From: Planctomycetaceae bacterium
GTDB taxonomy: Bacteria; Planctomycetota; Planctomycetia; Planctomycetales; Planctomycetaceae
NCBI GenBank assembly: GCA_016795145.1
Contig: JAEUII010000440.1
Location: forward strand, 1-64,000
DNA: 64,000 bases
Direction: 5' to 3'
Positions 8,696 to 62,203 of this stretch are shown here, piece by piece. The translations under genes and the position numbers were made by a program. The notes beneath the pieces are model-generated. The model saw only the letters and a program-made list of their open reading frames with translations. It searched no databases and was not told the DNA's origin. Each line of letters opens with the position of its first letter. The first letter of the stretch is position 1.

Positions 8696-9099
8696 TGCCC
8701 TATTGTTTGGGTGGATGTAGGATCTACGAGGATGACACGATGCAGATTGTGTCTCCCGTGACCAGCGGTTTGGCACGTCTGACGCTTCGAACAATCGGAG
8801 AAAGCGCACGAGCATCTGGAAGACGATTGGACTGATCAGAATGGGTCTCTGGTATAGTTGATCCGGTTCCACGGCGTGCGGTGCGGCGTTTCTTCAATGA
8901 TGCGACTCAACGCATGGTCATCCAGAAAAAGTACACGACGCCTGCTGTGAACCGACATCCCTCAGGAAAATTCGAAGTGCCCTGTTTGACAGCACTCTTC
9001 GGCCTCGGAGATACTGTCTCTTTATCGCGGTCGTTCGCCTGTGTGCATGCGTTGTCGTCGTAACTGCTGTTGCCGTACACACTGTTGCCTGGATCAGCC
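8696..9099. other. Intergenic region upstream of kinase-STAND gene
   Basis: About 400 bases with no convincing gene on either strand; small overlapping frames on both strands have no domain signature. It presumably includes the promoter of the large kinase gene, but no box is clear enough to place. Confidence 0.4.
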
Positions 9100-12000
9100 A
9101 TGTCATCTCCACCACCGGATCGTGATCCGCGTTTGGATGCAACAGTCAGGGGACCGGGCATCGCTCAGATCGAAGAGGTCTGTCATCGTTTTGTGCGAGA
9201 TTGGCAGAGTGGTCAGAGGCCGAAGATTGAGGACTATCTGAGCGGGGTTCCGGCGGAGAGTTACCGGGAACTGCTGCTGGAGCTGGTTCGCAAAGAAGTG
9301 TCGCTGTGTGTGCAATCCGGCGAAACGCTGACACTCGAGGATTACCTGTCTCGGTTCCCGCATGATCGTGAGACAGTTGCCCGGGCGTTTGCTTCGACCG
9401 AGCAACAGCAAGGCGGGGACTCGATCGTTGCTTCTTCGCATCCGTCCAAAGAACAAACATTCCTTGGAGCTCAGGTTCATGACACTGCAGCGGGAGCATT
9501 GATGGCGCCGGCTCAGCGTTACCGCAAAGTTCGAAGGCTGGGTGAAGGTGCCTTTGGAACTGTTTGGCTCGCGGAGGACCTCGAACTTCGGCGACAGGTG
9601 GCTCTGAAAGAACCTCGGACTGACCGGCTCAGGACGGCGTCAGATATCGAAACGTATCTTTCAGAAGCGCGTGTCCTGGCGAGTCTGGACGATCCACGTA
9701 TCGTGCCGGTCTACGATGCGGGGCGAACTGCGGAGGGTTCCTGCTATGTTGTCTCGAAGCTGATCGACGGCACTGACCTTGCTGCCTATGTGAAGCAGAA
9801 GCCGCTTTCGTTTGACGAGATTGCGAAGCTGGTTGCTCAGGTGGCGGAGGCTCTGCAGCATACGCACAACAGAGGCCTGATTCACCGTGACATCAAGCCA
9901 GCCAACATTTTGGTGGATCACCAGGGCCGACCTTACGTTGCTGACTTTGGTCTGGCGCTGCGTGAGGAGGACTTTGGAAAGCAGGGAGGAATTGCGGGAA
10001 CTCCGGCGTACATGAGTCCTGAGCAGGCTCGAGGTGAAGGCCACCTGATTGATGGCCGATCCGATCTCTTCAGTCTCGGTGTTGTGCTCTATGAGCTGCT
10101 GGCGGGGACAAGACCTTTCGCTGGAGTAAACTGGCGAGAGACTCTGGAACAGATTGTGACGGTCGAAGCGACACCGCTCACTCAGCGGAATGAAGCCATT
10201 CCGAAAGAACTGGAACGTATATGTTTCAAGGCACTGTCCAAGCGAGCTGCGGACCGTTATCCGTGTGCGGCGGACATGGCAGAAGATCTGCGACATTGGT
10301 CTGCCTCTCCCGCCGCAGGACTTCAGCCTCAGGCATCTGCACGGATCGTTCCCAGGGGGCTTCGTTCATTTGAAGCGGGTGACAGCGATTTCTTTCTGGA
10401 CCTGCTGCCGGGAGCGCGCGACCGGGATGGTCTTCCTGAAACGCTGCGATTCTGGAAGACGCGCATTGAAGAGACGGATCCGGACAAAACGTTTCGCGTC
10501 GGGCTGGTCTATGGTCCCAGCGGTTGCGGCAAATCGTCGCTGATGAAGGCTGGTCTCCTGCCGCGACTCAACGATCATGTCGTTCGTGTCTTTCTGGAAG
10601 CCACGCCGGACCAGACCGAGCAGCACATGCTGCAGAGCCTTCACCGGGCCTGTGCTGATTTGCCGCGAGAGACTTCACTGGCGGAAACGCTTTCGGCGAT
10701 TCGTCGAGGGCGAGGCATACCCGCCGGACGCAAGGTCGTGGTGATCCTCGATCAGTTTGAACAGTGGCTGTACGCTCACGGGGCCGAGCGGAACACCGAG
10801 CTGGCGGCCGCTCTGCGACAATGCGATGGCGGACGGATTCAGGCCGTGCTGCTGGTGCGAGATGATTTCTGGATGCCCGTTTCCGACTTCCTGCGAGCCC
10901 TGGAAGTTCCGTTGCTGGAAGGTATCAACGCCGGAGCCGTGGGGCTGTTTGATCCTCTGCATGCCAGGAAAGTTCTGTCCGAATTCGGAAGAGCCTATGG
11001 TCGGCTTCCGGAGAATCTGAGCCAGCTCACAGCATCTCAGACAGCGTTTTTTGATCAAGCTGTCGGCGGGCTGTCGCAGGATGGCAAGGTGATCTGCGTA
11101 CGCCTCGCTTTGTTCGCCGACATGATGAAGGGGCGTGAGTGGACGCCGGCAGCTCTTCAGGAAGTTGGCGGCACGGCTGGTGTCGGGGCGACATTCCTCG
11201 AAGAGACTTTCAGCAGCCGCACCGCGCCGCCTCAACATCGTCAGCATCAGGAAGCGGCTCGCGCTGTGTTGCGAGCATTGCTTCCCGCCACAGGCACGGA
11301 TATCAAGGGCCACATGCGAACGGCCAGTGAGCTACAGGAAGCGAGTGGGTACTCGAACCGTCCCAACGACTTCGCGGAACTGATGCGCATTCTTGACAGC
11401 GAAGTGCGGCTGGTCACCCCGGTCGCTGGAGACAGAGTTGAAGAGGGGAATGAGAAGGGAGAACCGTCCGACGCTGCAATTTCCTCTTCTTCCTCTTCTT
11501 CCTCTTCTTCCTCTTCTTCCTCTTCTTCCTCTCCTCATGCATTGAGTTTTCAGCTGACTCACGACTACCTCGTGCCGTCGCTGCGAGACTGGCTGACCCG
11601 CAAGCAGCGGGAGACGAGGCGTGGTCGAGCAGAACTCAAGCTTGCGGAGCTCTCATCGCTGTGGGAATCGAAGCCGGAGAATCGCCATTTGCCGTCGCTG
11701 ATGGAATGGCTCAGCATCCGTATGTTGACGGAATCCAGACGCTGGACCGTACCGCAGCGGACCATGATGAACCGAGCAGCTCGGGTGCTGTGTTCGCAGA
11801 CGGGATTGCCAACTCTGGCTGTGTTTGTGGTCCTGGTTTTTAGTCTTGTCACTCGAGAACAGGGGCGTCAGCGACAGGAAGCGACCCTGGTCCAGGGACT
11901 GGTTAATCAGCTTGTCAGTGCGGAACCAGCGCAGGTGCCTGAGATCGTCAAGGAGCTGGAAAACCATCGTGACGTTGCGTCGACGTCCCTGGCGTCGCTG

Positions 12001-13983
12001 GTTTCTTCAGATGCCAAAACCGATCCGGAGAAGCGAACGCAGTTGCATGTCCGACTTGCGATGGTTGGCAGCGACAGGTCTTTGGTCGAACCGCTGATGG
12101 AAGACATGCTGACCAACAAGAGCACCTACATTGGTCCGATTCGCCAGCAATTGCGTCCGTACGCAGCGGAACTCACCGAGAAACTTCAAGTCATCCTGCG
12201 AGATGAAAACGCAGATGCCCAGCACCGATTTCGGGCAGCGATCGCGCTGGCAGATTATCTTCCTGAGTCCGAAGCGGATTGGTGGACCGAGCAGGACCTG
12301 CAACTTGTCGCCAGACAGCTCGTCACGGAGAACGCGGAATTCCAGCCGCTGCTGCGTCAGAATCTGCGGCCCATCAGCGATCGCCTGCTGGTGGGACTGG
12401 AGACGATTTTCAGTGACCCCGCATCGACCGAAATGCAGAAGCTGAGTGCTGCGAATGCGTTTGCGGACTATGCGGCCAGCGATATTCCCAGGTTGTCTCA
12501 ATTGCTGACCGTGGCGACACCGGAGCAATTTGCGGTGCTTTATCCGATCATCGCTGGCAATGGCGATTCTTCTACCGTGGAAGAACTCAGCAGGATTGCG
12601 GCTACTTCGCCGTCGGAGGAGGCAGGCTCCGTTGAACGAGTGAGCTTCGGTCAGCGGAGAGCGAATGCGGCTGTGACACTGCTTCGACTTGGCGAGCGTG
12701 AAAAAGTGTTGCCGGTCTTTGAAATGACCGACGATCCCGAAGCACTGACGCAGTTCATTTTTCGCTGTCGTGACCGTGGTGCGAGTGTGGGGGATCTTCT
12801 GGATTGCCTGCGTCTGGTCAGCGAATCTCCTGTTGATCGGTATCCCTCACAGGCGCGATATGCTCTGCTCCTGGCACTTGGCGAGTATTCGCTGGATGAG
12901 GTTCCTGCGACGCAACGGGAGGCGCTGGTTCAGCAGTTGGCAGACTTGTACCGCAGTGATCCCAGTTCAGGAGTGCATGGAGCCTCTGGCTGGTTGCTCC
13001 GGCGCTGGGGGCAGAACGAATTGGTGCGGCAAGTCGATCAGACGGCAGTGCCTTATTCCGCGGATCGCGAGTGGTTTACTCTGGCGATTGCAGTAGAGCC
13101 GAGTTACTCGGAATTGTTATCAAAACCGCTGACGCCACAGCCTCCACCCAAAACCCACTATTACACGTTCATCGTGTTTCCTGAAGGAGATTCGCAGATT
13201 GGTTCGGTCGATGATGAACTGGGGCGAGAGACGGATGAACGTCGTCATACTGCCACTCTGGTGCATTCATTCGCCCTGCTGGATCGAGAGATCACGTTCG
13301 AAGAGCTGATCGAGTTCTCTTCGCAGTATTCGCGACTGATGCAACAATACGAAGCAAATCCGGAAGATGCCGGGTTGGGAGTTTCCTGGTATGACTCGGT
13401 GGCTTTCTGCAGGTGGCTCTCACAGCAATCGGGGTTATCTGAGTCTGATCAGTCTTATCCGGACCCAGAATCGCTGGACGTGAAAGAATATCCTCGCGAC
13501 CTGATTGTTGGATCAGATTCGGTGCCCCGTGACTGGCCCGTGGTATTTGGTCGTGGATTTCGTCTGCCGACGGAATCCGAATGGGAAGTTGCGTGCCGTG
13601 CAGGTACGCGAACTGCGTATGGGTTTGGGAGTGACAGTTCATTGCTGCCCCGATTTGGCTGGTTTCAGGGGAATAGCGAAAACCGAGTTCATCCTCCGCG
13701 AGAACTGTTGCCAAACATCCGCGGTTTGTTCGATATGCATGGAAATCTGTCTGAGTGGACACAGAACTGGTATGGTGAATATGGGTTATCCACGATGTTG
13801 GAAATGATGAAACTGAAAACTGGCAGAGGTCGCGTGCACCGCAATGGTGATTGGCGCGACGACGCTCTGGGTGCCCGGACTGCAAACCGAGGTACCGCCT
13901 TCCCGTCGCTCCGCTCAAAGACTCTCGGCTTTCGCCTGGCGATCAGTTCACCGTCTATGCTGTTGCAGGATGCAGGCAATTGA
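9100..13983 (+). CDS. Ser/Thr kinase - STAND NTPase - FGE-like fusion protein
   Basis: 1,627 residues from ATG 9100 (MSSPPPDRDP). Residues ~140-410: Hanks kinase with glycine loop LGEGAFGTVW, Lys170, catalytic HRDIKPAN (from ~262), DFG at 282 and GTPAYMSPEQ activation segment. Residues ~455-720: STAND-type NTPase with Walker A GPSGCGKSS (~472) and Walker B VVVILDQFEQW (~548). Then a winged-helix-like segment, a linker of 17 serines (~795), a hydrophobic helix near 905-920, HEAT-like helical repeats (~960-1330), and a C-terminal formylglycine-generating-enzyme/C-type-lectin-like domain (~1350-1625: FRLPTESEWEVACRAGT, GLFDMHGNLSEW, LGFRLA). Kinase, STAND and FGE-like modules in one chain are known from predicted bacterial conflict or signalling systems; STAND proteins act as ligand-triggered switches. 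No sulfatase is nearby, so the FGE-like part is more likely a binding domain. Substrate and trigger are unknown. Confidence 0.88.
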   Translation: MSSPPPDRDPRLDATVRGPGIAQIEEVCHRFVRDWQSGQRPKIEDYLSGVPAESYRELLLELVRKEVSLCVQSGETLTLEDYLSRFPHDRETVARAFASTEQQQGGDSIVASSHPSKEQTFLGAQVHDTAAGALMAPAQRYRKVRRLGEGAFGTVWLAEDLELRRQVALKEPRTDRLRTASDIETYLSEARVLASLDDPRIVPVYDAGRTAEGSCYVVSKLIDGTDLAAYVKQKPLSFDEIAKLVAQVAEALQHTHNRGLIHRDIKPANILVDHQGRPYVADFGLALREEDFGKQGGIAGTPAYMSPEQARGEGHLIDGRSDLFSLGVVLYELLAGTRPFAGVNWRETLEQIVTVEATPLTQRNEAIPKELERICFKALSKRAADRYPCAADMAEDLRHWSASPAAGLQPQASARIVPRGLRSFEAGDSDFFLDLLPGARDRDGLPETLRFWKTRIEETDPDKTFRVGLVYGPSGCGKSSLMKAGLLPRLNDHVVRVFLEATPDQTEQHMLQSLHRACADLPRETSLAETLSAIRRGRGIPAGRKVVVILDQFEQWLYAHGAERNTELAAALRQCDGGRIQAVLLVRDDFWMPVSDFLRALEVPLLEGINAGAVGLFDPLHARKVLSEFGRAYGRLPENLSQLTASQTAFFDQAVGGLSQDGKVICVRLALFADMMKGREWTPAALQEVGGTAGVGATFLEETFSSRTAPPQHRQHQEAARAVLRALLPATGTDIKGHMRTASELQEASGYSNRPNDFAELMRILDSEVRLVTPVAGDRVEEGNEKGEPSDAAISSSSSSSSSSSSSSSSSPHALSFQLTHDYLVPSLRDWLTRKQRETRRGRAELKLAELSSLWESKPENRHLPSLMEWLSIRMLTESRRWTVPQRTMMNRAARVLCSQTGLPTLAVFVVLVFSLVTREQGRQRQEATLVQGLVNQLVSAEPAQVPEIVKELENHRDVASTSLASLVSSDAKTDPEKRTQLHVRLAMVGSDRSLVEPLMEDMLTNKSTYIGPIRQQLRPYAAELTEKLQVILRDENADAQHRFRAAIALADYLPESEADWWTEQDLQLVARQLVTENAEFQPLLRQNLRPISDRLLVGLETIFSDPASTEMQKLSAANAFADYAASDIPRLSQLLTVATPEQFAVLYPIIAGNGDSSTVEELSRIAATSPSEEAGSVERVSFGQRRANAAVTLLRLGEREKVLPVFEMTDDPEALTQFIFRCRDRGASVGDLLDCLRLVSESPVDRYPSQARYALLLALGEYSLDEVPATQREALVQQLADLYRSDPSSGVHGASGWLLRRWGQNELVRQVDQTAVPYSADREWFTLAIAVEPSYSELLSKPLTPQPPPKTHYYTFIVFPEGDSQIGSVDDELGRETDERRHTATLVHSFALLDREITFEELIEFSSQYSRLMQQYEANPEDAGLGVSWYDSVAFCRWLSQQSGLSESDQSYPDPESLDVKEYPRDLIVGSDSVPRDWPVVFGRGFRLPTESEWEVACRAGTRTAYGFGSDSSLLPRFGWFQGNSENRVHPPRELLPNIRGLFDMHGNLSEWTQNWYGEYGLSTMLEMMKLKTGRGRVHRNGDWRDDALGARTANRGTAFPSLRSKTLGFRLAISSPSMLLQDAGN
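11482..11535 (+). repeat. 9-bp microsatellite encoding poly-serine linker
   Basis: Five perfect copies of TCCTCTTCT (11482-11526) plus one imperfect copy, in frame within the kinase-STAND gene, encode 17 consecutive serines. Any change in copy number alters the linker by three residues without a frameshift, so this is a length-variable, in-frame tract. Confidence 0.95.
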
Positions 13984-14522
13984 AGGGCAGCGACGACAGT
14001 TTTCAATGTCGGTGACGTCCTGGTCGTATTCGCCGTTCCGGAAACGGTGATGTTGTCATCCGCCCGTGCCAGAATCTTTGTGGGTACTGGCCGTTCGTGG
14101 AAAGAGCCAACTGACTGCGGAACCGACAGAGCCTGTGAGTGGAAAGTGGAAAGCGGAAAGCGGAAAGTGGAAGGGGACCGTTGTTTTACACTTCGTTCAA
14201 CCTGAACACTGAAACCTTCCCTCCCCCGAGCTTGCTGTCGCTCGCTCGACCCCTCCCTAAACTTCGTTTTGGGCGGGGGGCGATGAAAGCGGAGAGCGGA
14301 AAGCCGATGGGGACAATTGTTTTTGCACTTCGTTCAACCTGAACACTGAAACCTGAACACTGAAAACCTTGCCCTCCCCCGAGCTTGCTGGCGCTCGCTC
14401 GACCCCTCCCTAAACTTCGTTTTGGGCGGGGGGCGATGAAAGCGGAAAGCGGAAAGCCGATGGGGGACAATTGTTTTTGCACTTCGTTCAACCTGAAACC
14501 TGAACACTGAAATCTGAACACT
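13984..14522. repeat. Intergenic direct-repeat block
   Basis: No gene. A purine run of GGAAAG-type units (14137-14172) leads into two near-identical ~135-155-bp units (about 14180-14312 and 14313-14467) and a partial third (14468-14525). Each unit has a TTTGCACTTCGTTCAACCTG segment, short repeats of CTGAACACTGAAA, then CCCTCCCCCGAGCTTGCTG and GACCCCTCCCTAAACTTCG with a downstream GGGCGGGGGG that can pair with CCCCTCCC. Similar C-rich/G-rich cores recur at 61.8-62.1 kb, so this is a dispersed family. Confidence 0.85.
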
Positions 14523-16526
14523 TCAGTTAAAACGCAGGCCATTGCGCATGGTTAGGGCGGTGCGGGACTTGGCGGAGGGGTGTTCGTGGAGGCGATTGGT
14601 TTGATAGGCTTCGATGAGTCGTTCGAGCATCTTGATTCGATAGCGGATTCGCTGACCGCGTTCGGTGTCGCGAGTGCATCGAGGCTTGTCGAAGACTCGG
14701 ATCTCTGTCACCCTCGGAACGATATCGATGCCTTCGCGAAGTGCTGCGTCGACGGATTCGAAATGATGATGTTCCGCAAGGACGATGCGATTGGCTTCGA
14801 GGACCAGTGTATAGCCGTAGTCACCATAGGCCTCGGAAAATGCACCGTCGATGGTGATCGCCTTGCCGCTGCGTTTGAGAGGTGATTCGCCGCTTTCCAC
14901 TTTCACCGGAACGTGACCGTTCACGATCAGTCCGCCTGTGGGATCCATCCCGAATTCTGCCAGGATGCGATCACAAAACGCTACTTCGTGAATGAGCGAG
15001 AAATAGGGGTTCTTGGTTTCGCGATGCGATGCCTTATCCCGAATGAAATCTCGTTCGAATGTGGCGATGCGATCCTTTCCGAACAGCGGTGAGACCGGAC
15101 CGCTCCAGAGATACCACAGAAAGTCGAGATCCTTTTCGGACGCGGACGTCATGGCTCGCCGAACCACTGTTTCAATACTCTCAAACAGCGCGCGACCAGT
15201 GAGCAGCTCTCCATCGACTGGCAGCGGCAAGAACGCACCCTCGGAATTGACCGGAACGCAGCCATGGAAGATCAGGCATTCGTCGCGACGGAGGTACATC
15301 GCTCCGTGACCAATCATGAATCGTGTCTGCTCCTGCAGCTTCTGGCTGTTTAGGAATGAGTGCTTCAGAATCGCCAGGCACGACGCTTCTTCCGGCGTCA
15401 GCTGATAGGGGTTCTCTGGATCAATTGTCGGGAACAGCCTGTCTCGCAGCTCATAGACCTGACCGTCGATCTCGATGGTGCCGCGAGTATGATCGATGCG
15501 ATGCAGCAGTCGTCGATGTTCCAGACCCCACTGCGGATTCCGCTCGATCAGCTGACCCTCGAGCTTGAACTGCATGATCGCCGCAGCCTTTTGCATCCTG
15601 GCCACGATGTCGTTTGGACGCATGCCGGAACTCTTCGGCATAAAGAACTCAGCCGGATCATTTGCGTAGACGGTCCTCGCGAGATGTTCCAGGGGAGTGA
15701 GCGGAATGCTGTAACCTTCATCCAGCTGACCCATGCGGCGATAGCGCAAAGAGACCCGAAGAACCGTGCAGATGAGAGCTTCGTTCCCCATCGCGGCACC
15801 CAGCCACAAGGCATCATGGTTGCCCCAGATGAACTCCACATTGGGCTGAAGGCGAAGATAATCCACAACGCGGTCGCCTCGCGGACCACGATCCCAGCAG
15901 TCTCCACCGATGATCAGTTCATCGACTGCCAGGTTTCGAATCAGACGCCCCACAAGGTGAATCAAATGCAGGGCTCGCCCGCGAGCAACCAGTTCATCCA
16001 GCATTCCGTCGATGAACTCCGGACTTCGTTCTGTTGACGGTGCATGCAGCAACTCCAGCAACAGCTCACTGTATTCTGCGGGAAACAATCGAGTCGCCAG
16101 ACGCAGGCTGTAATTCGAAATGAGATACCGAAGTAACTCCAGCTGCGGTTTCAGAGTCTTCGCTGCATACTGTTTGACGTCGTGTGGATTCTGCAACTTC
16201 TGTTGAAGAAGTTCAGTGACCTCGGCCGGATAGAAGGTCAGCTTCAGGAACTCCGTCAGTTCCTCCGCCGTCATTTTGTCGGCAAACATGTCTTCAACAA
16301 TGGGCCGCAATGTGCCGGACGCATTATTGATCACGTGCTGAAGCTTTTTGTCTTCACCGTGAATATCGCTGATCACATGCACGGCGCCTTTCGGAAGCGT
16401 CTGCACGGCTGCAAGTCGAGCAACCTCCGCGATGGCTGCGTCGACGTTGGGATATTCCTGAGCCAGCAGCTCCAGCATGGTGAGATCTGCTTCGGGGCGT
16501 TTGAACGACAGGGACGTATTGGACAT
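14523..16526 (-). CDS. fbp: Fructose-1,6-bisphosphatase class III
   Basis: A 667-residue protein, close to the usual size of class III (Firmicutes-type) fructose-1,6-bisphosphatases. It hydrolyses fructose-1,6-bisphosphate to fructose-6-phosphate in gluconeogenesis, in the cytoplasm. The metallophosphoesterase signature is complete: HVISDIHGE, GGDCWDRGPRGD and FIWGNHD, with further family blocks FHGCVPVNSEG, SGPVSPLFGKD and LIVNGHVPVK near the C-terminus. The ATG at 16526 (MSNTSLSFKRPE) is preferred over a TTG at 16562, though neither has a strong ribosome-binding site. The stop lies at the edge of the repeat block. It is a single gene, same strand as the kinase behind it. Confidence 0.92.
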   Translation of the reverse strand: MSNTSLSFKRPEADLTMLELLAQEYPNVDAAIAEVARLAAVQTLPKGAVHVISDIHGEDKKLQHVINNASGTLRPIVEDMFADKMTAEELTEFLKLTFYPAEVTELLQQKLQNPHDVKQYAAKTLKPQLELLRYLISNYSLRLATRLFPAEYSELLLELLHAPSTERSPEFIDGMLDELVARGRALHLIHLVGRLIRNLAVDELIIGGDCWDRGPRGDRVVDYLRLQPNVEFIWGNHDALWLGAAMGNEALICTVLRVSLRYRRMGQLDEGYSIPLTPLEHLARTVYANDPAEFFMPKSSGMRPNDIVARMQKAAAIMQFKLEGQLIERNPQWGLEHRRLLHRIDHTRGTIEIDGQVYELRDRLFPTIDPENPYQLTPEEASCLAILKHSFLNSQKLQEQTRFMIGHGAMYLRRDECLIFHGCVPVNSEGAFLPLPVDGELLTGRALFESIETVVRRAMTSASEKDLDFLWYLWSGPVSPLFGKDRIATFERDFIRDKASHRETKNPYFSLIHEVAFCDRILAEFGMDPTGGLIVNGHVPVKVESGESPLKRSGKAITIDGAFSEAYGDYGYTLVLEANRIVLAEHHHFESVDAALREGIDIVPRVTEIRVFDKPRCTRDTERGQRIRYRIKMLERLIEAYQTNRLHEHPSAKSRTALTMRNGLRFN

Positions 16527-20653: not shown

Positions 20654-23600
20654 ATGTCGCTCAAATCCTGGCTCCATGCGGTCACAACCAGCACTTTCCG
20701 TCGAGATCGTGCTGCTCGCAGGTCAATTCATCGTCGCAGTGCTCGTCGCCGAGTAGTGGCCAGCAGCGAAGGGATGGAGACCAGAATCATGCTGTCTGCG
20801 GTTCATTGGATCAGTGACTCCAATGGATTCTGGGACGACCCGGCCAACTGGCAGGATCAATCCACACTTGCAAATCGCGTCCCGGGAGGAGGCGATGAGG
20901 TCGTCATCAACCGACCGGGAAGTTCAGTCACAGTCACGATTCGTCCTGGTTCCGGAGGTCAGGGTGCAGGACTCTTCACGCTGGCAGCTGACGAATCGCT
21001 GCGTATCGAGGGTGAAGACTTCAGTGTTTTTCAGCCAAGCACACTGGCGGGTAATGTTCTGGTGTCCGGTGGGCGCATCGATGGGCGGCAGAGAGTCACA
21101 TTGAATGGACAGAATCACTGGAGCGGAGGATCGTTCGCCGGGCAGATTACGATAGGTGCTGCGGGAGTCCTTGATATTTCCGGTGCGGCTGACAAGGCGA
21201 TCAGTGCGCAGTTTGAGAACTTCGGAACGGTGATTCATTCCGGTTCTGGTGATGTGGTTGATACTGCGAATGGCTCCGGAAGTTTGTGGGTGAATCAGCC
21301 AGGCTCTGTGTACGATTTCACTGGAGATGACGGTCGTCAGCTTACCTCCACATTCAACAACCTTGGCACAGTTCGCAAATCCGCAGGCAGTGGAGAGTCG
21401 TCATTCACCGAGAACTTCCACAACCTTGGTGGAACCGTTGAAGCCACTCAGGGAAAACTGAAACTGTCTCGAGGGTCAAGTACGGGCGGGACCTACAACG
21501 CGTCAGCTGGTGCCGTGCTTGATATGACTGGCGGTTCCACGGCGTTCTTCACCGGCACACTGACGGGCTCCGGGTCAGGACGAGTGGAGCTGTCGAGTGG
21601 TTCCATGCATACCGGCAGTACCGAGGCGACGCTGAACTTTCCAGCGGGCTTGTTTCACTGGACCAGTGGAGCATTCACAACATCAGGCCGTGCATGGAAA
21701 AACAGTAGGACTGTGCAGATCTCTGGCGCCTCAGACAGGACGATCAGTGCGCAGTTTGAGAACTTCGGAACGGTGATTCATTCTGGTTCCGGTGATGTGA
21801 TTGATACTTCGAACGGCTCTGGCAGTTTGTGGGTGAACCAGCCAGGTTCTGTGTACGAGTTCACTGGAGATGATGGTCGTCAGCTCACGTCCACATTCAA
21901 CAACCATGGTACGGTTCGCAAATCCGCAGGCAGCGGAGAATCGTCATTCACCGAGAACTTTCACAACCTTGGTGGAACCGTTGAAGCCACTCAGGGAAAA
22001 CTGAAACTGTCTCGAGGTTCAAGCACAGGCGGGACGTACAACGCGTCGGCTGGTGCCGTGCTTGATATGACTGGTGGTTCGACGGCGTTCTTCACCGGCA
22101 CACTGACGGGTTCCGGGGCAGGTCGAGTAGAGCTGTCGAGTGGTTCCATGCATACCGGCAGTACCGAGGCGACGCTGAACTTTCCAGCGGGCTTGTTTCA
22201 CTGGACCAGTGGAGCATTCACAACATCAGGCCGTGCATGGAAAAACAGTGGGACTGTGCAGATCTCTGGCGCCTCAGACAGGACGATCAGTGCGCAGTTT
22301 GAGAACTTCGGAACGGTGATTCATTCTGGTTCCGGTGACGTGATTGATACCGCAAATGGCTCTGGCAGTTTGTGGGTGAATCAGGCTGGCTCTGTGTACG
22401 ATTTCACTGGAGATGATGGTCGTCAGCTCACATCCACATTCAATAACTTTGGTACGGTTCGTAAGTCTGCGGGCAGCGGAGATTCCTCTTTCAATGCGGT
22501 GTTCAATAACTCCGGCGGGGTCCTTGAATCGTTGAGTGGTCGTTTGCTGCTCGCAGGCACTGGTGGCTTGTGGACGGATGCGACGTTGCTGGCCACCGGG
22601 GAAGGTCGAGTTGTCCTTGCATCACACTTGTTCGTGACTGGCCTGATCTCCGGCAGTGGTACGGGCAGAGTTGAGCTCGCGGATGGATCTCTGACATCAG
22701 TCAGTGACGGTGGATCCAGGCTTCTTGCGAAGCTGAACTTTCCTCAGGACTACTTCCACTGGACGGGAGGAACAATTCGAGGGAACGGACTGACCAACAT
22801 CGGTACGATCACCATTTCACCACTTGTGTCCGGACCTGCGCTGGAAGGACCGATGCTCAATGAAGGGCTGATCCAGAATATCGGGCCGGGATCGTTTAGT
22901 CTGAATGGTCAGCTCCTGCACAACCGAGTGGGTGGCGTGTATGAGGTTCACGGAAATATTACGACATACGGCCGAAACCAGTTCGGAGGGCGTGGGACAT
23001 TTCAGAACGACGGCACGATTCGGCGTGTTTCGGGTGCCGGTACCGCGATTATTGACGCGTCACTGGCGGGTTCCGGTGGACGAGTCGAAAACGAAACTGG
23101 GACGCTCGCATTCAATAGCGGAGGCAGCTCAAGTGGCATGATCTTTGAGGCTGCTGCCGGAACAGAGATTGAGTTCAATGGAGGCTTCTCAGAATCACTG
23201 TTCTGGAGCGGCCGACACAGCGGCAGCGGTGCTGGACGTGTGAATCTGAATGTGGCGTTGCAGGGTGATAACGCGGTTGGCGGAAATCTGGATTTTCCAG
23301 ACGGCATGCTGCAGATCGTCGGCGGCGGCATCTTTGGCTTCATTGTGAATACCGGAGCCGTTCAGCTGAATTCGACGGACGGCATATTTGCCAGAGCTGT
23401 GTTTGAGAACAACGGCAAGTGGGTTCTCGCTGGAGCCGGAGATTTCGTGCTCAACGCGAACAGCCAGTTTCGGAATCGTGGATTGCTGGAGTTCCGCACG
23501 GATGCGGACATGGTTGTCCCCGGAGACGCATCGATCGGGTCGATGTACCTTTTCAACAGCGGTACACTTCGAAAGTCAGGTGGCAGTGGAAGTTCGGCCC

Positions 23601-26600
23601 TGCGTCACGATGGCTCTTCAAAGGAACTTGCGTTCGACAATACGGGGATCGTGGAAGTTCAGACGGGCACACTTTCTCTGAATGATCGAGTCCTGCAGTT
23701 CGACGGGACCACTCTGACAGGCGGCATGTGGAAGGTCGGCCCGCTTGCCACACTGACGGTTCCATCGGCGACTTCGATTACTACAAACCAGGGCCACATC
23801 ATTCTGGACGGGCCAGGATCCAATTTTACAAATCTGACAAATCTTGCCAGCAATTCCGGAAGTTTCACACTGGAGGGCGGACGCGATTTTACATCGACAG
23901 GAAACCTGACGAACAGCGGGCAGATCAGAGTTGGGCCAGGCAGCGTACTGACTGTCACCGGGAACCTGACCGAGACCGCCGCGTCAAGTCTGGTTGGACT
24001 GTGGCGAGCAGACGGTAATGCCCAGGACTCCAGTGGAGCGGGTCGGCATGGCACATTGAAGGGGACGATTCCAGTTGTTCCGGGGCGGTATTCAGACAGT
24101 TTTGAATTCAACGGCCAGCACAATTATGTGTCGCTGGGAAACCCGACCGCGCTGTGGCTTCAGAACTTCACAATCAGTGCATGGGTTCGGCGTGAAGAGA
24201 GTGGCAGTGGATCGATCCTTTCGTACGGTCTGTACGGTTACGGATTTGGTTTCGCGCCTAATGGAAGACTTTTCCTGTCGCAAATCGCGATAGGCCATGT
24301 CGAGTCCCCGAGCCTTGGCGTGAACGATTCAGAGTGGCATCATGTCGCCGTCACGAAGTCTGGTGGCACGGTCACGTTTTACGTTGATGGACAAAAGGAA
24401 GAGGTTTTCGGTTATTTCCCTTCGTATAGCTTTTTTACCAATGTGGCGATTGGGGGCATTGAAAGCGATGGGAGTACAAATTCATCGTTCGCTGGTCGCA
24501 TTGATGAAGTGGCGGTTTACAACCGAGTACTGACTGCCGCGGAACTCGCTCGAGTCGCTGGGAATGCTGATGTTCCCAACAGCGGCCGCACGGTGCCTTC
24601 CGTGGATGTTGTGATTTCAAATCGTCCCGCGACCGGAGAGTATGGTCGAGTTGTTGTGAATGGTCAGGCGTCCCTGACAGGTCCCCTCAACATCGTTCGG
24701 GCTGACGGATTCGGACCAGTACAGGGTGATTCCTATGATGTTGTGTCGTTTGCGGGACGAACGGGGAATTTCTCCTCTATCAACGGCCTTTCGCCGTTCT
24801 TCACAGCAACGACTTCGGCCACGGGCATACTGATTGGAACGGACCATTCCGCCGGGGATCTGGCCACAGTTTCTGCGAAGGCCTTAGGTGCTGGTCCGGC
24901 TGTTAGCGGGCAGTCGATTCAGATCGAATACACAGTTCGCAATGACGGCTCCAACGCGCTCTCTGCTGACTGGCAGGATACCGTTTTTCTTTCCACAGAC
25001 CGAGTCCTTTCGGCAGACGATACATTACTCGCGCGGGTTGGCCACACTGGAGGTCTCATCGCTGGCGCCTCGTATACGCAGACCGTGACAGCAAACGTAC
25101 CGGGTCTTGTGGATGATGACTACTACGTTATCGTTGTTGCGAACGCAGACAAAGCCGTCCCTGAAGCTGACCGGGGCGATAACATCATCGACTCAGACGA
25201 GGCAATCCGCGTCCAGTTGCCGACTCTTGCATTTGGTCAGGTGTTGAATGGCACGATACTCCCTGGTCAGCCGATGCATTTTCGATTGACGGTCCCGGCC
25301 GGATCCCGTGATGTCGCCATTGCGTTTGATGCTGCAGATGGCTCCGCGGGAGCCATCGAACTGTATGCGGGACGCAGTGTGTTGCCACAGGCATCGCAGT
25401 TTGAGTTCGCCAGTGGCGAGTTGAACTCAACCGATGCCAGCCTTCTGATGTCCGATGTAACTCCTGGCGAGTATCTTCTGACGGTTTCTCCGAGGCGGTT
25501 GACGGGACCTCTTTCGTTTTCACTGATCGCAGACACACCGCAGGCGACATTGTCGAGTGTTGTCCCGGCGAAAGCCGGCAAGGGAACGGTGACGTTTCAG
25601 ATCCGCGGGAGCAACCTCCTTGAAAGCGACGTCGTCGAACTTGTGAACTCCGCCGGGACAAGAATTGCTGCCCGATCGACCGCGCGTGATGACGCATCTC
25701 ATTTGTTTGCGACGTTTGATCTGACCAGTGCGGCACAAGGGGCCTATGACGTTGTCGTCACGCGATCCGGTAACTCCCGAGTGCTGTCCTCCGCTGTAAC
25801 AGTCGAAGCTCTGAAAACGTCCACGCTCTCTTCGCGACTTGAGCTGCCGAATCGGTTCCGAGTAGGACTGACGTTCAATGGCGCCGTCGTGTACGAGAAT
25901 CCTGGTAATGTCGATATGCCGGCGCCATTGATTGTGCTGTCGACTGACGGTCAGGCGCATCTCCGTCTGTCCCGGTCTGATGAGTTCCAGCCCAACAATC
26001 TGGTCCTGGTGGCGGCCAGTCAGACAGGTCCGGCAGGAATTCTGCGACCTGGCGAAGTATGGCGGATCCCATTCCAGGTGTTTTCTCCGTTCGTGAGTGA
26101 GATGCAGGTTTCAATCGACTATCAGACGGCTGACGCCTCAGACGCAGTAGACTGGGATGCGATGGAAGCCAGTATCCGCCCGTCCGGCGTAGCGGATGCA
26201 GACTGGGATAAATTCTGGCTGCCGTTCGTTCATGAAGCGGGCAGCAGCATCGGCGGCTACGTGCAGGTGATGGCCCGATATGCCACGGAAGTGCAGGCTC
26301 GCGGGGGGCGATTTGTTTCGGGAGCGGACGTGCTGGAAGTCGCGATGCGGGATCTCTACGAGCGATCTCACGTCACTGCAAAAGGTCAAGTCTTTCTCGA
26401 TGACGCTTCACATCCGCTGTCTGGTGCTGAGGTCCTGGCGAGCCGGACGTCGGGAACGCTGGCAGAGCGGATAGCCGTTGCCGTTCGAACGGACTCGGAA
26501 GGTAGGTTTCGACTTCCCGAACTCTCGCCGGGAACCTATGCGATTACCGTTCCGGGTTATCAACAGTTCTCTGCAACGACAGTCACTGTCACAGGAAGCG

Positions 26601-29600
26601 GTACTGCCCCGGATGTCACTCTGACTGTACGCCGAGGAGGCGTCATACGTGGCGTTGTTCGAAGCAGTTCGAATGAAGTCCGGCTGAGTGGGGTTCTCGT
26701 GCGAGCCGAGAACAGCTCCGGTGAGTTTCGGCAGATCAGAACGGACAGTCAGGGTCGCTTCGAGGTCACTGGTTTGGTTGATGATCTCTGGATGGTCACG
26801 GCCGGCAGCGGACAATGGGCCGTCAGTGCTCGGCGCGGCCTGGAGATTGACTCACCGACCCGTGTCCGGGATGTTATTATCGATTTGAGCCCGGCTGCTC
26901 GTCTTTCCGGAATCGTTCGTACCAGCAGTGCCGCTGCGGCAAATGTTCGAGTGGAAGTCCGTCGGCAGGATGGTCAGTTGGCTGTCGATCCAGTCACAAC
27001 AAATCTGTCTGGCCAGTACTTTTTCGATACGCTTGAGCCAGGCTCGTATGTGGTCGTGGCCTCTCTTCCAGGATTTGCCCCAGTCGAGAAAGCAATCACC
27101 GTCGTTCCCGGCAGTACTGTGGCGCAGGATCTGATTCTGGAGTCCGGAGCGAATCTCAATGTGACGATCGTCGATACGAACTCTGGCCGGCTTGGAGACT
27201 CAACACTTGAAGTTCGACGTGCTGGAATCGCTGTTGCTCTCCTGGGGGCTGACACCAACGGGCAGATCTCCCTTTCAGACCTCGCCCCTGGTGAATATGA
27301 ACTGACAGCTCGGTCCCCTGGTTTGCTTCCGGCGAAGTCCACGATGACTTTGGCAGCCGGAACAAATTCCACCACTCTGACACTTTCTCAAGCCGGCCGG
27401 ATTTCCGGCATTGTTAGAGACGGAAACGCAGTACCGATTCCAAACATTCAGGTTCAACTGTCGGGAATCAACACGTCCGGTGATGCCCTGGGTCATTTGG
27501 TCAGCACGGCCGCCGACGGAAGCTACGTGTTTGAAGGGCTACCTCACGGAGCTTATGCCATCACGACGGGCAATGGCGAAGGTATCCTGCGGCAGGATAC
27601 AGCGATCGATTCCGGCTCTCTGTCCAGAACCATGGACTTCACTGTCGCCGGAGCCACGATCACCGGGACGTTCGTTGGTGCAGACGGCGTGACGCCGCTG
27701 GCGGATTCCACGGTACTGCTGCTGCAAAACGGTACCGTCCTGGCTACGGCCGAGACGAACGCCAGCGGACGTTATGTCTTCAGGTCTTTGCTGGCTGGCA
27801 ATTATTCCCTTCAGGGTGGAGGATCGTCCGGGATCAGTGCTCGCCAGGCGATTACTGTTGCGGCAAACTCGCAAACAAATGCTCCGGTACTGCAGGCCGG
27901 CTCGAGAACACTCTCCGGAACCATACGGTTTGGTGGCTCACCGGTCGCCGGAGCGAGCGTTCTGATCGTACCGACCGGCTCTGCGGTGCTGGGGAAATAT
28001 CTGATCGCTGTGACGGGGGTCGATGGTACCTGGTCGTTCTCAGGTCTGTCGCCTCAGGACTATCAACTGCTGATCGAGTCGCCAGGCCGTGTCATCATCT
28101 CCGAGACCGTTGTTGTCAGTGCTGACACAGTGCGAGACTTTGTACTGCAGGACGGATTGCAGGTAACAGGAACCGTGTCGTTCGCCGGACTGGGAGTTGG
28201 TGATGCGACCGTGCTATTTGTTGATCCTGTCACACACCGAGTCTTCGGTGCGGATACAACGGACGCCGCCGGAAATTACACGGTTGAAGATCTGCAGAGC
28301 GGCCCGTTTACTGTACTGGTTCATCATGCTGGTAATGCCACGCTGATCGCATCCGGCGTCACTGTTGCTGTTGGAACGCTGGTGCACAATTTTTCAATTG
28401 CACCAGAGTCGACGCAGGTCAGCGGTACTTTGCTGGATGATCGGGGTGCACCCGTAGCGAATGCGATCGTTGAGTTCATTGACGCCAGCGGACAGGACGT
28501 CGTCAGTGTCTATTCCGGCTTTGATGGAACGTATTCGACTACGGCGCTGCCACCAGGAATGTGGACGGCCATCGCAAGGTTGCCGGGGTACTTTACAGCG
28601 TCGGTCACGGGGCTGGTCGTGGCATCTGGAACGCCGGTGGTCCGGAACTTCACATTGGCAACCGCTGGAACAGATGACAGTGCCTTTGTGGACGGGGCTG
28701 ACGACTATGCGGTGGCAGAAGCAACAGCGGAGTATCTGAAGGAAAGGAACCCTCGGCCCGAACGTCACTCATTTGACCGATTTCCCGAACTACCACCTCC
28801 TGGCCCGAACGCCTGTTCCGAGAAAGAAGAGGCATATATTCAGGCCCTGTTCGCCGGTGATAATAAGGACGCAGCATTCGATGCATGGAAATCGGCACAC
28901 GAAAACTACAATTCCACCATCACCAACAGCGCATTGATTTTCGGATTTCAGTTCGCAAACCTGATGGGTTCGATTGCCTCGGTTGTCTATGGAGAAGCGA
29001 TGGCTGGGGAGTTGGCGGCAGCCTCCGGTGCGAGACAAGCAACAGTGATAGTGGCTCAGCTTGGTGTCATGTCGGTGCAACTCAAAAAGGTCTACAAGGC
29101 TGGTAAGGAGGCAATACATTCCGGTAACGGTAAGGACATCCTCAACTTTGCGAAGAATAGTCTTAAGCTTCTTGATGAAGGCGGGGAGGTCTCCCACCTG
29201 ATAAACGCAATTCGCGGCGTCGAAGGAGGTGTGCACCTGCCGTTTCATTTGCGGTTCGGGTTCGTTGTTGCCCTTGTGAACCTGTACGACCTTGTGAAAG
29301 AGACTTCGGCGAGTGCCGAGGCACTGGAGAATCTCGGCGAAACGGTCCCAGACGCGCGGGATCGCTACTACAGTGCACTGCAGGAGTATATTGATCGCAG
29401 GGCACACTATAGCCGAATTTCCTGCACGCCGGATGATCCACCAGAACCGTTACCACGCAAACCAGGGCCGCGGATCTTTCTGGCAAATCGGCAATCGGGC
29501 GACCCTAACGAAAAAGAAGCAAGCAGCATCAGCGGATCATCATTTGTCCGCGCTGGTGATGTGATCGACTATACGATTCACTTCGAGAACATGGCGACCG

Positions 29601-32845: not shown

Positions 32846-33839
32846 TGAGTGCTTCCAGCCAGACTGCACGATGCTTCTCCGGATCGTTCAGTTCTTCTGC
32901 GCGCTCGCGACATGCCAGGGACATCTGGCGTCGTGCGTGAGGATCTTTTGCCAGTCCCTGAACACACGCCTGGTAGTCACGAAAATCATCGCACAGGAAT
33001 CCGGATGTTCCGTGTTCAATCAGGGACTCGAAGTGATGTCCGGCTGGCACAATCGGGATCGCTCCCGTCAGCATGGCTTCGACGGTACTGCGTCCCCACG
33101 ATTCCGTAAACTGATGTCCAAGCGGATAAACAAACAGATCGAGGCTTTGAAGAAAGCGATGCGCTGGTTCTGCTTTCGGTGGAAGAAGGTCCCAACGATC
33201 GTCGAACTGATGCCATCGATACTTCGCAGAGAGTTCGTCGCTCCACGCCATGACTCGAAATCGCGCGTTCGGAATGTCGAGTGCTTCGTAGAAAACCGGG
33301 AAGTCTTCGGGATACTTGAGTGCATCAGCTCGCGAGAGCCGTCCGATGGTGACATGATCGACGGCCGGCCGTTCAACGAACGGAAAATCATCCACCGAAA
33401 TGTAGTTGCCCGTCATACGCGTGGAAACGTTGCAGAACGATTCATAACTGAGTGCTCTGCGCTGGATGTCGGAAACATAGAGAAGACGTGTAACAACTCC
33501 GGCTTCGATCAGTCCGCGTTCCCAGGGATGGTGCCACATCATTTCGGAGGACCAGACGATTCGCAGTCCTCGCTGAAGGGCTTCGGAGTAGATTCCGCCT
33601 GCGAAAAAACTGCCGTTGCACATTGCAAGCGCAACACCGTCCAGTCGCGACGGAAGTGATGCCAGTGTCGTGTACCTCACGCCCCACGAATCCAGACGAG
33701 TCGTCCAGACGGCATCCTGAAGCTGGCATGGGTCATTGGGGATGACAGTGATATCCGCAACGCCAGCAAGCAGCTTCAGCAGATGAGCGGCCTTCGTGTC
33801 GGCCCCACCATACTCCGAAGGCCACCCAAAATAGAACAA
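32838..33839 (-). CDS. GT-B fold glycosyltransferase (family 4-like), 5' end at a repeat
   Basis: The conserved part starts FYFGWPSEYGGADTKAAHLL, a typical N-terminal GT-B nucleotide-binding beginning, and includes ESWGRSTVEAM (the E-x7-E donor-site motif) followed by GAIPIVPAGHHFESLIEHG. Starting at TTG 33839 gives 333 residues, a normal family size. The open frame extends a further 68 codons to a GTG at 34043, but that part lies entirely within an intergenic repeat and looks non-coding (GQGALAPCS...). The start is therefore uncertain, and the native 5' end may have been replaced by the repeat. The downstream GT-A gene overlaps it by 8 bases, forming a two-gene glycosyltransferase operon. 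Confidence 0.8.
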   Translation of the reverse strand: MFYFGWPSEYGGADTKAAHLLKLLAGVADITVIPNDPCQLQDAVWTTRLDSWGVRYTTLASLPSRLDGVALAMCNGSFFAGGIYSEALQRGLRIVWSSEMMWHHPWERGLIEAGVVTRLLYVSDIQRRALSYESFCNVSTRMTGNYISVDDFPFVERPAVDHVTIGRLSRADALKYPEDFPVFYEALDIPNARFRVMAWSDELSAKYRWHQFDDRWDLLPPKAEPAHRFLQSLDLFVYPLGHQFTESWGRSTVEAMLTGAIPIVPAGHHFESLIEHGTSGFLCDDFRDYQACVQGLAKDPHARRQMSLACRERAEELNDPEKHRAVWLEALNV

Positions 33840-34055
33840 GGGGCAAAAGCCCCTTGACCCGAAGGAGCCTTCCAGCTCATTGCCAATTCGCCGCTCACGT
33901 TGTTCGCTTGCCTCAAACAAACACGCACCGTGCAAGCCAAGGACAGAGGAACAAGGGGCAAGAGCCCCTTGACCCAGAGGAGCCATCCGGCTCGCTGCCA
34001 GTTGGTCGCTCACGTTGTTCGCTGGCCTTAAACACGAGCGCACTTTGCAAGCCAG
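33838..34055. repeat. Two-copy intergenic repeat (CAAGGGGC family)
   Basis: Two ~105-bp units (about 33838-33940 and 33950-34055) share CAAGGGGCAAnAGCCCCTTG (a palindrome), GGAGCC, and TCGCTCACGTTGTTCGCT, each followed by a CAAGCCA end. A degenerate inverted copy lies near 41.5 kb. The repeat abuts the glycosyltransferase start. Confidence 0.85.
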
Positions 34056-34070
34056 GCACAGAATCAGACT

Positions 34071-53947: not shown

Positions 53948-54240
53948 CAATTCGGCGAGCGGCCTGGCGTTAGCCGGCCGGTACATCACACGCCGATACA
54001 AACCACAACCCGGCGAGCGGCCGGTGTCAACCGGCCGGTACACCACAAGCCCATACCACAACACAACCCGATACATCACATCGTTGAAACACAAAATCGC
54101 ATACCGGGAAGCTGACGCATCCCGCTCGCCAGAATGATTCAGGGGATTGACCAAAACTCGATTCATCCACACATCATGCGGCATCACGTCATCACAAAAT
54201 CGCATACCGGCCGGTTGACACCGGGGCCGCTCGCCGTTTG
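53948..54240. repeat. GCGAGCGGCCGG intergenic repeat cluster
   Basis: Two direct copies, CGGCGAGCGGCCTGGCGTTA...CCGGCCGGTAC (53951-53985) and CGGCGAGCGGCCGGTGTCAA...CCGGCCGGTAC (54011-54045), and one inverted copy ACCGGCCGGTTGACACCG...GCCGCTCGCCG (54205-54236). Each is an imperfect palindrome around GGCCGG. No gene is supported between 53934 and 54249, which is otherwise A/C-rich with a CACAACAC pattern. Confidence 0.85.
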
Positions 54241-61622: not shown

Positions 61623-62203
61623 TCAGGACCTTCGCAGTGGGAGGGAAGAAGTCGGAGGGATTGAACCAGCTGTCTGAATGGTGTGCACCTGACCGACAGC
61701 TGAAAGATGATGCTCGGGAGTTTATCGTTTGAAGGGCGAAGTCTCCTGGTTCAGAAGAACGCGTCGCCGTCAAATCGCGCATAATGACGAAAGCATCCCC
61801 TCCCCCGGCCTAGTCGGCCGACCCCTCCCGCTTCGCTACGCTGCACGGGAGGGGAGGGTTGTGTTGACGTGTGGTTGAACGTGGATTTGCAATTCAGAGT
61901 GGCATGTATTCATGTCGCCCCAAAAACCTCCTCCCCCAAACTCGTTTGGGGGAGGTCGATCGCGCGTCAGCAAGATCGGGAGGGGGCCTCGTGCTTCGTT
62001 AGTGGATGGCGTTCAAGTTGAGACGCACGCCAAAGGGCGAAACGGCGCAACCCTCCCCCGGTCTCATCGGCCGACCCCTCCCGTTTCGCTGCGCGGCACG
62101 GGAGGGAGTGTAGAGCGATTGTCTCAATCGCTTCGCCCCAGATCGGGCTTGATCAAGAGCCGCAAGGCGCGTCAGCGTGACGCTTTTCCGTTCGATTCCT
62201 GAC
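61623..62203. repeat. Intergenic region with three C-rich/G-rich hairpin repeats
   Basis: No supported gene. Three related elements occur: about 61797-61858 (CCCTCCCCCGGCCTAGTCGG ... GACCCCTCCC ... GGGAGGGG), about 61928-61987 (CCTCCCCCAAACTCGTTTGG then GGGAGG), and about 62051-62113 (CCCTCCCCCGGTCTCATCGG ... GACCCCTCCC ... GGGAGGGAG). Each can fold with its G-rich half. The core is shared with the block at 14.2-14.5 kb. Confidence 0.8.

Follow-up and report, generated by a model that had tools for sequence, protein, structure and literature searches.

A dispersed intergenic repeat with the symmetry of an intrastrand triplex in a Planctomycetaceae genome

Triplex-type and palindromic repeats of bacteria

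The closest described relative of the repeat considered here is TM_ECO of E. coli, earlier called the PIT motif, which has the form CCCTCNCCC-N3-6-GGGNGAGGG-N3-GGGNGAGGG (Holder et al., 2015; PMC4666352). In the part of that paper available to us, to which all statements about it below refer, TM_ECO is described as intergenic, without strand bias and patchy among relatives, and loci carrying it vary more between strains. The one-mismatch type is the most frequent in E. coli (13/23), and pairs of the motif join an A with a B copy in five out of five cases; by our own reading of the coordinates in Table 1 of the paper, the third tracts (R′) point inward in four of these five. The triplex of TM_ECO was seen in vitro and no stable triplex in vivo, no mobility gene was found at the motif, and earlier work cited there found neither promoter nor terminator activity. 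Loops in the accompanying database search were limited to 1-6 nt, and planctomycetes are unnamed in the main text as far as available. A further group, the REP/BIME/REPIN sequences associated with RAYT genes, comprises short intergenic palindromic repeats of high copy number that form head-to-head dimers and clusters, and Rhodopirellula baltica is named as host of several GTAG families (PMC3733652). Heptameric simple sequence repeats, such as the G4-forming ones of Xanthomonas and Nostoc, are likewise intergenic 7-bp tandem arrays (PMC4692102, in the part available).

The repeat core described here lies in a window of 64,000 nt, the whole stretch of DNA analysed, from the genome of a Planctomycetaceae bacterium (G000; 8.11 Mb in 473 contigs). 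It is a real, dispersed, non-coding and structurally constrained DNA repeat. Like TM_ECO as available to us, it has three C/G-rich tracts of 8-9 nt in the order Y-R-R′ that give class II triads, is intergenic, patchy and free of strand bias, and forms inverted A/B pairs; in one genome of the class (G051) both motifs are paired directly. It differs from TM_ECO in its second linker (TC and a hairpin where TM_ECO has 3 nt), its first loop (5-17 instead of 3-6 nt), its mirror-flipped B layout, its dimer arrays and its planctomycete host. As its loops exceed the limits published for TM_ECO, the core is classed here as a variant rather than as TM_ECO itself; judged from its sequence, it most plausibly is a form of the intrastrand-triplex repeats of Holder et al. 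(2015) with long linkers. No description of it for planctomycetes was found among open-licence article texts. REP-type repeats share its size, location, copy number, head-to-head dimers and clusters, whereas the core carries no GTAG/CGTC tag, is not located beside RAYT genes, and has three mirror-symmetric tracts instead of one palindrome. The heptamer blocks around the cores recall the heptameric arrays of Xanthomonas and Nostoc; they belong to a background found throughout the genus and distinct from the core.

Anatomy of the core and its copies in the window

On the G-rich strand, the core reads as a C-tract (Y), a loop, a G-tract (R), the dinucleotide TC, an inner hairpin (P2) and a second G-tract (R′). 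R is the complement of Y and R′ is R reversed, which is the symmetry required for a class II (C·G*G) purine-motif intrastrand triplex with R′ as the antiparallel third strand. Eighty-three distinct copies out of at least 141, taken from part of the genome, were parsed; their first loop measures 5-17 nt and their second linker consists of TC plus 11-21 nt. The triples of Y, R and R′ are C4TC3/G3AG4/G5AG3 in 44 copies, C2TC5/G5AG2/G3AG5 (the B layout) in eight and CCTCTCCC/GGGAGAGG/GGGAGAGGG (the S type) in six, and at the variable position A/A/T in nine, A/A/C in seven and G/A/A in five, with four singles. Class II triads number 8/8 in 58 copies, 7/8 in 23 and 6/8 in two, so that the Y-R-R′ order with at most one mismatch is present in 81/83 copies, and at least one triad is broken in 25/83, including both copies at 14.1-14.5 kb. 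In the B layout the A/T position is shifted in all three tracts together, giving 8/8 triads as against six Watson-Crick pairs between Y and R′. Across G000, G063, a closed single-contig genome of the same family (G376) and Fuerstiella sp. Bin_49_1 (G452), R′ is G5NG3 in 144/144 A-layout copies and G3NG5 in 70/71 B-layout copies, and the S layout (GGGAGAGG with GGG[A/T]GAGGG) holds in 13/13 copies of G000 and G051. The mirror rule is thus kept across three tract layouts and five genomes, although the layouts may stem from a small number of events, in which case counting copies overstates how independent they are. In G452, copies in which Y departs from perfect pairing by a single wobble or mismatch (CCTCTCCC with GGGGGAGG) number 47, about as many as those of the perfect B type (44), which counts against the rule.

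The inner hairpin occurs with five main stems (GAGC/GCTC, GAAC/GTTC, GGCC/GGCC, GATC/GATC and TGAG/CTCA). Its outer five pairs are all complementary in 79/83 copies, with a mean of 4.95 pairs of five compared with 3.59 after shuffling the arms across copies; counted by nine distinct stem types, the observed mean of 4.56 equals the best of 2000 shuffles, whose mean is 2.78. The stem of the loop shows complementary changes as well. Such changes in P2 need not mean selection, because template switching between arms also yields them.

The tandem locus at 14.1-14.5 kb lies in the gap where two genes converge, a kinase-nSTAND1-FGE-sulfatase gene (9070-13983, + strand) and a fructose-1,6-bisphosphatase gene (PF06874; 14523-16562, − strand). 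Positions 14138-14522 hold two units and a core-less third in the order heptamer block, core, block, core, block, with direct-repeat families spaced at 136-154 bp and a 101-bp pair at 14212 and 14365 that is 95% identical; the tandem units with a partial third given in a preliminary description of this DNA are thereby borne out. The blocks and cores of this locus are all on the + strand. The first block is an AGTGGAA/AGCGGAA heptamer array (14138-14172; 5.0 copies by Tandem Repeats Finder). Core copy 1 follows at 14219-14278 in C-first orientation, divided into the first tract (14219-14227), P2 (14228-14247), GA plus the second tract (14248-14257), the loop (14258-14270) and the G-tract (14271-14278), and its single broken triad falls at the variable position (G-tract GGGCGGGG). 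The second block (14285-14365) combines a GAAAGCG array (14285-14304) with a CTGAANN array (14336-14365) about 30 bp apart, and is followed by core copy 2 (14372-14431), laid out as copy 1. The third block (14438-14522), again a GAAAGCG array (14438-14457) and a CTGAANN array (14490-14522), has no core behind it. On folding, the simple hairpins of the core reach −27.6 and −29.4 kcal/mol (z −2.64 and −1.63). The second block also contains, at 14285-14325 between its two heptamer arrays, an extra short repeat with the inverted repeat AACGATTG-GGGA-CAATCGTT and variants, which recurs at several further sites in the same genome (L002-L005, L010).

Three further copies are located at the right end, as had been proposed from a shared core, and they are indeed differently arranged. 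Two A-layout copies on the + strand (61798-61854 and 62051-62107) carry P2 of the GGCC type and flank a B-layout copy in opposite orientation (61930-61986, − strand) with P2 of the GATC type, so that the middle copy belongs to an inverted, mirror-flipped subtype and its neighbours have a different inner hairpin. Read on the + strand, the tracts of the B copy are Y at 61930-61937 (CCTCCCCC) and R at 61948-61955 (GGGGGAGG), followed by TC, P2 at 61958-61977 and R′ at 61978-61986 (GGGAGGGGG). Together with the A copy at 62051 it forms a head-to-head dimer whose R′ tracts point inward across a 64-nt linker (61987-62050). The repeated hairpin family of the preliminary description is thus correct in kind; the simple hairpin is only part of the anatomy, and the third tract and the mirror symmetry had been missed. 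A search of the whole window against Rfam at gathering score gave no match. The window also contains a 3696-aa ORF (20654-31744) with at least nine carboxypeptidase-regulatory-like domains, SdrD_B, laminin-G and CARDB, which is probably a large surface protein, and two tandem repeats of two copies each (33834-34062 with a 115-bp unit; 53953-54070 with a 57-bp unit).

Copy number, pairing and surroundings

Searched at the DNA level with the 14-kb repeat as query, the window's own genome gives 50 matches at E up to 1. An exact pattern (tract 1-N3-30-tract 2) matches 89 times on 51 contigs and a broader core pattern at least 141 times, with no match to the reversed control of the former or the control of the latter. 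The genome-wide count for which the preliminary description had called therefore yields abundant further copies, and the repeat family that it had made dependent on them stands. The broader pattern is absent from 17/17 congeners; elsewhere it occurs once in G022, a further genome of the family, 46 times in G063, six times in G051 and once in each of four more genomes of the class, which makes 8/79 genomes with a match, the own one included (program tally). Of 392 genomes drawn from the phylum, 17 match a stricter pattern, and more than two copies are found only in the own genome (128) and in G376 (28); most of the other matches look like chance GC-rich strings. A first scan across GTDB with a narrow core pattern gave no match. 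A wider one is dominated, among the matches listed, by Fuerstiella sp. Bin_49_1, and since it also returned unrelated high-GC strings and covers listed matches only, it is no census. Counts of the Y-R hairpin pattern are 652 in G452, 148 in G063, 103 in G000, 95 in G051 and 69 in G376, with none in each of four congeners and no control match in any of the nine genomes. The core repeat is abundant in a few lineages and absent from near relatives. A pattern of the P2 types of the own genome has no match in viral contigs, nor has the right-end stretch among plasmids or the 14-kb stretch among phages. A 6-kb query around the right-end copies matches in 16/18 genomes of the genus including the own one, with synteny broken and the congeners too distant for an empty-site reading; among the congener matches listed, none spans the right-end copies.

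Copies are clustered, 32 of the 89 having a neighbour within 400 bp where 0.8 would be expected. Close pairs join A with B in 18/18 cases in G376 and 93/93 in G452 (the latter counted at 21 of 56 Fuerstiella loci), and among ten inverted close pairs of G000 seven join two layouts and three A with A. Tandem core arrays are present in the own genome and in Fuerstiella, where A copies alternate with B copies at a unit length of about 185 bp, with up to eight A copies per array among the matches listed. A slightly loosened TM_ECO pattern matches 145 times in G051, 58 times in G063, nine times in the own genome and not at all in six other genomes. Twenty regions of G051 contain 24 close pairs of a canonical TTA-linker motif with a hairpin-linker motif, head to head with R′ inward, and six further pairs that are opposite neighbours inside dimer arrays; these regions were picked because most of them have adjacent hits of both motifs and thus show layout and orientation, not pairing frequency. 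Taken with the E. coli pairs (PMC4666352, in the part available), these pairings give three kinds of dimer: canonical with canonical in E. coli, canonical with hairpin-linker in G051, and hairpin-linker with hairpin-linker in the own genome, G376 and Fuerstiella.

The genomic context was counted for 69 cores in 367 kb of the own genome (20 stretches picked for holding copies), with genes called by a simple codon-usage script rather than a standard gene caller. Co-directional gaps hold 26 cores, convergent gaps 21 and divergent gaps ten; nine lie at stretch ends and three inside called ORFs, so that 57/69 are intergenic. These 57 make up 30 sites (14 co-directional, 12 convergent and four divergent), the corresponding numbers of intergenic regions being 95, 27 and 27. 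Relative to the upstream gene, 31 cores run with it and 37 against it, without strand bias; the GC skew of G376 is too weak for placing replichores and comparing strand with replication. Arrays of 6-7-mers occur at 13/30 core sites compared with 5/80 core-free gaps of at least 150 bp (Fisher P 1.6e-5), and 24/58 cores lie within 200 bp of such an array against 4.6% of random positions. Gaps with cores are longer (median 708 vs 319 bp), and array density per base is still 4.8 times higher in them. CTGAANN arrays are found near 13 of 92 copies in one orientation and none in the other, and TTAATC arrays near 16 of 92 with GATTAA near one, some of these copies being tandem and hence non-independent. 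CTGAANN arrays are present in 17/18 genomes of the genus, with 0 to 205 matches per congener genome. Since the core is missing from 17 of the 18 genomes, the arrays do not need it, and the core was rejected as their maker. Two intergenic repeat islands, L079 (contig C275) and L081 (contig C267), consist of composite units repeated in tandem. Each unit measures about 280-360 bp and combines a core with GGTTCTT heptamers, GATTAA hexamers and further palindromes.

Explanations for the core and its spread

The reading that we prefer, at a probability of roughly 0.6, is that the core is a repeat of the intrastrand-triplex kind, which would form a triplex in the cell, promote replication slippage or template switching that duplicates neighbouring blocks, and have no dedicated role for the flanking genes. 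When the G-rich strand becomes single-stranded during replication or repair, Y and R would pair as a hairpin stem, and R′ could fold back along R as a third strand (C-G*G, T-A*A and T-A*T triads), with the hairpin P2 standing where the E. coli motif has its 3-nt linker. A fork meeting the folded core may slip or switch template, whereby neighbouring blocks would be duplicated or lost, as at 14.1-14.5 kb. The tandem layout at that locus fits such a mechanism of folding, stalling and slippage, and the clustering and the adjoining 6-7-bp microsatellites are compatible with replication slippage as the putative cause. The triplex kind is favoured by the mirror rule, by the tract shift of the B layout, by A/B pairing as in TM_ECO and by the direct pairing with canonical motifs in G051. 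Against it stand the broken triads in 25/83 copies, the covariation of Y and R′ in A copies taken up below, loops longer than those of TM_ECO, the lack of a stable triplex of TM_ECO in vivo, and the presence of 6-7-mer arrays in congeners that have no core.

The preliminary description had offered a non-autonomous mobile element, and a REP/REPIN-like or MITE-like element mobilised in trans by a transposase that recognises a folded single strand is an improbable explanation, if the strongest of the alternatives. Its dispersal and patchiness fit this proposal (at least 141 copies against none in 17 congeners), as do the REPIN-like head-to-head dimers, whose linker is about 80% alike between the own genome and Fuerstiella, and Y1_Tnp genes are present in all five genomes searched. 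As regards a MITE, dimers have inverted C/G tracts at their ends simply by construction. What speaks against it is that a transposase partner and a target-duplication signal were not seen: a hairpin-linker core occurs within about 3 kb flanks at only 1/46 Y1_Tnp loci of the five genomes, this locus being among the weakest hits and in the genome with most copies, and all cores of the closed G376 are more than 20 kb from the nearest Y1_Tnp hit. The two strongest Y1_Tnp genes of the own genome (L061 and L062) are flanked by palindromic repeats of their own, unlike the core, while the foot of parsed copies is GGGTC or GGTC instead of a GTAG/CGTC tag, scanning the flanks of copies revealed only C-rich composition and no sign of target duplication, and for the E. 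coli motif, too, no mobility gene is reported in the available part of PMC4666352. A RAYT-flanked REP was rejected on the Y1_Tnp searches in five genomes and the flank scans. The palindrome type of L061 (...CCGTGGGTTGACACCCACGG...) recurs on contig C275.

A three-way junction, formed in RNA or in cruciform DNA, with Y and R′ as a Watson-Crick outer stem, P2 and the loop hairpin inside and R free or alternating, would account for the stable hairpins obtained on folding and for the complementary changes in P2 and the loop stem. In A copies, moreover, the variable position changes jointly in Y and R′ (a T in Y goes with A in R′, an A with T or C), R remaining A throughout, and the A/A/C type gives a G:T wobble on the C-first strand; this covariation is easier to reconcile with direct Y:R′ pairs than with a triplex. 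Y and R′, however, pair at only seven positions in the A and six in the B layout, where the mirror gives eight in both; Y and R are exactly complementary in all three layouts (A, B and S); and the partner motif of G051 with its TTA linker keeps three tracts without room for an inner hairpin. This structure therefore appears quite unlikely. Still less probable is a transcript-end structure behind genes, terminator or mRNA-stabilising, which had likewise been suggested and to which the sequence lends no support: the hairpin is stable and convergent gaps are over-represented (12/30 core sites vs 27/149 intergenic regions, Fisher P 0.001), but 13900-14700 holds no terminator-like site, the mixed orientation towards the upstream gene (31 with, 37 against), a median distance to the stop of 217 bp and the four divergent sites do not suit it, and terminator activity was not found for the E. 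coli motif in the earlier work cited in the available part of PMC4666352. An intrinsic terminator was rejected, there being neither a T run nor an orientation preference.

One may speculate that intrastrand-triplex repeats form one cross-phylum replicator family that keeps three-strand geometry over sequence, the mirror rule holding in the A, B and S layouts alike, and spreads as head-to-head A/B dimers without known REP transposases, with planctomycetes preserving the steps from the canonical dimers of E. coli through the mixed dimers of G051 to the purely hairpin-linker dimers of the own genome, G376 and Fuerstiella; we put this forward only tentatively. The available part of PMC4666352 leaves triplex formation in the cell and the abundance and patchiness of the motif as questions. 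In the core the third tract is flipped together with the other two, so that the triplex can be tested by comparing copies, which the nearly symmetric E. coli motif does not allow, and the closed genome G376, the 652 matches of Fuerstiella and the core-free congeners provide material for testing its spread and instability.
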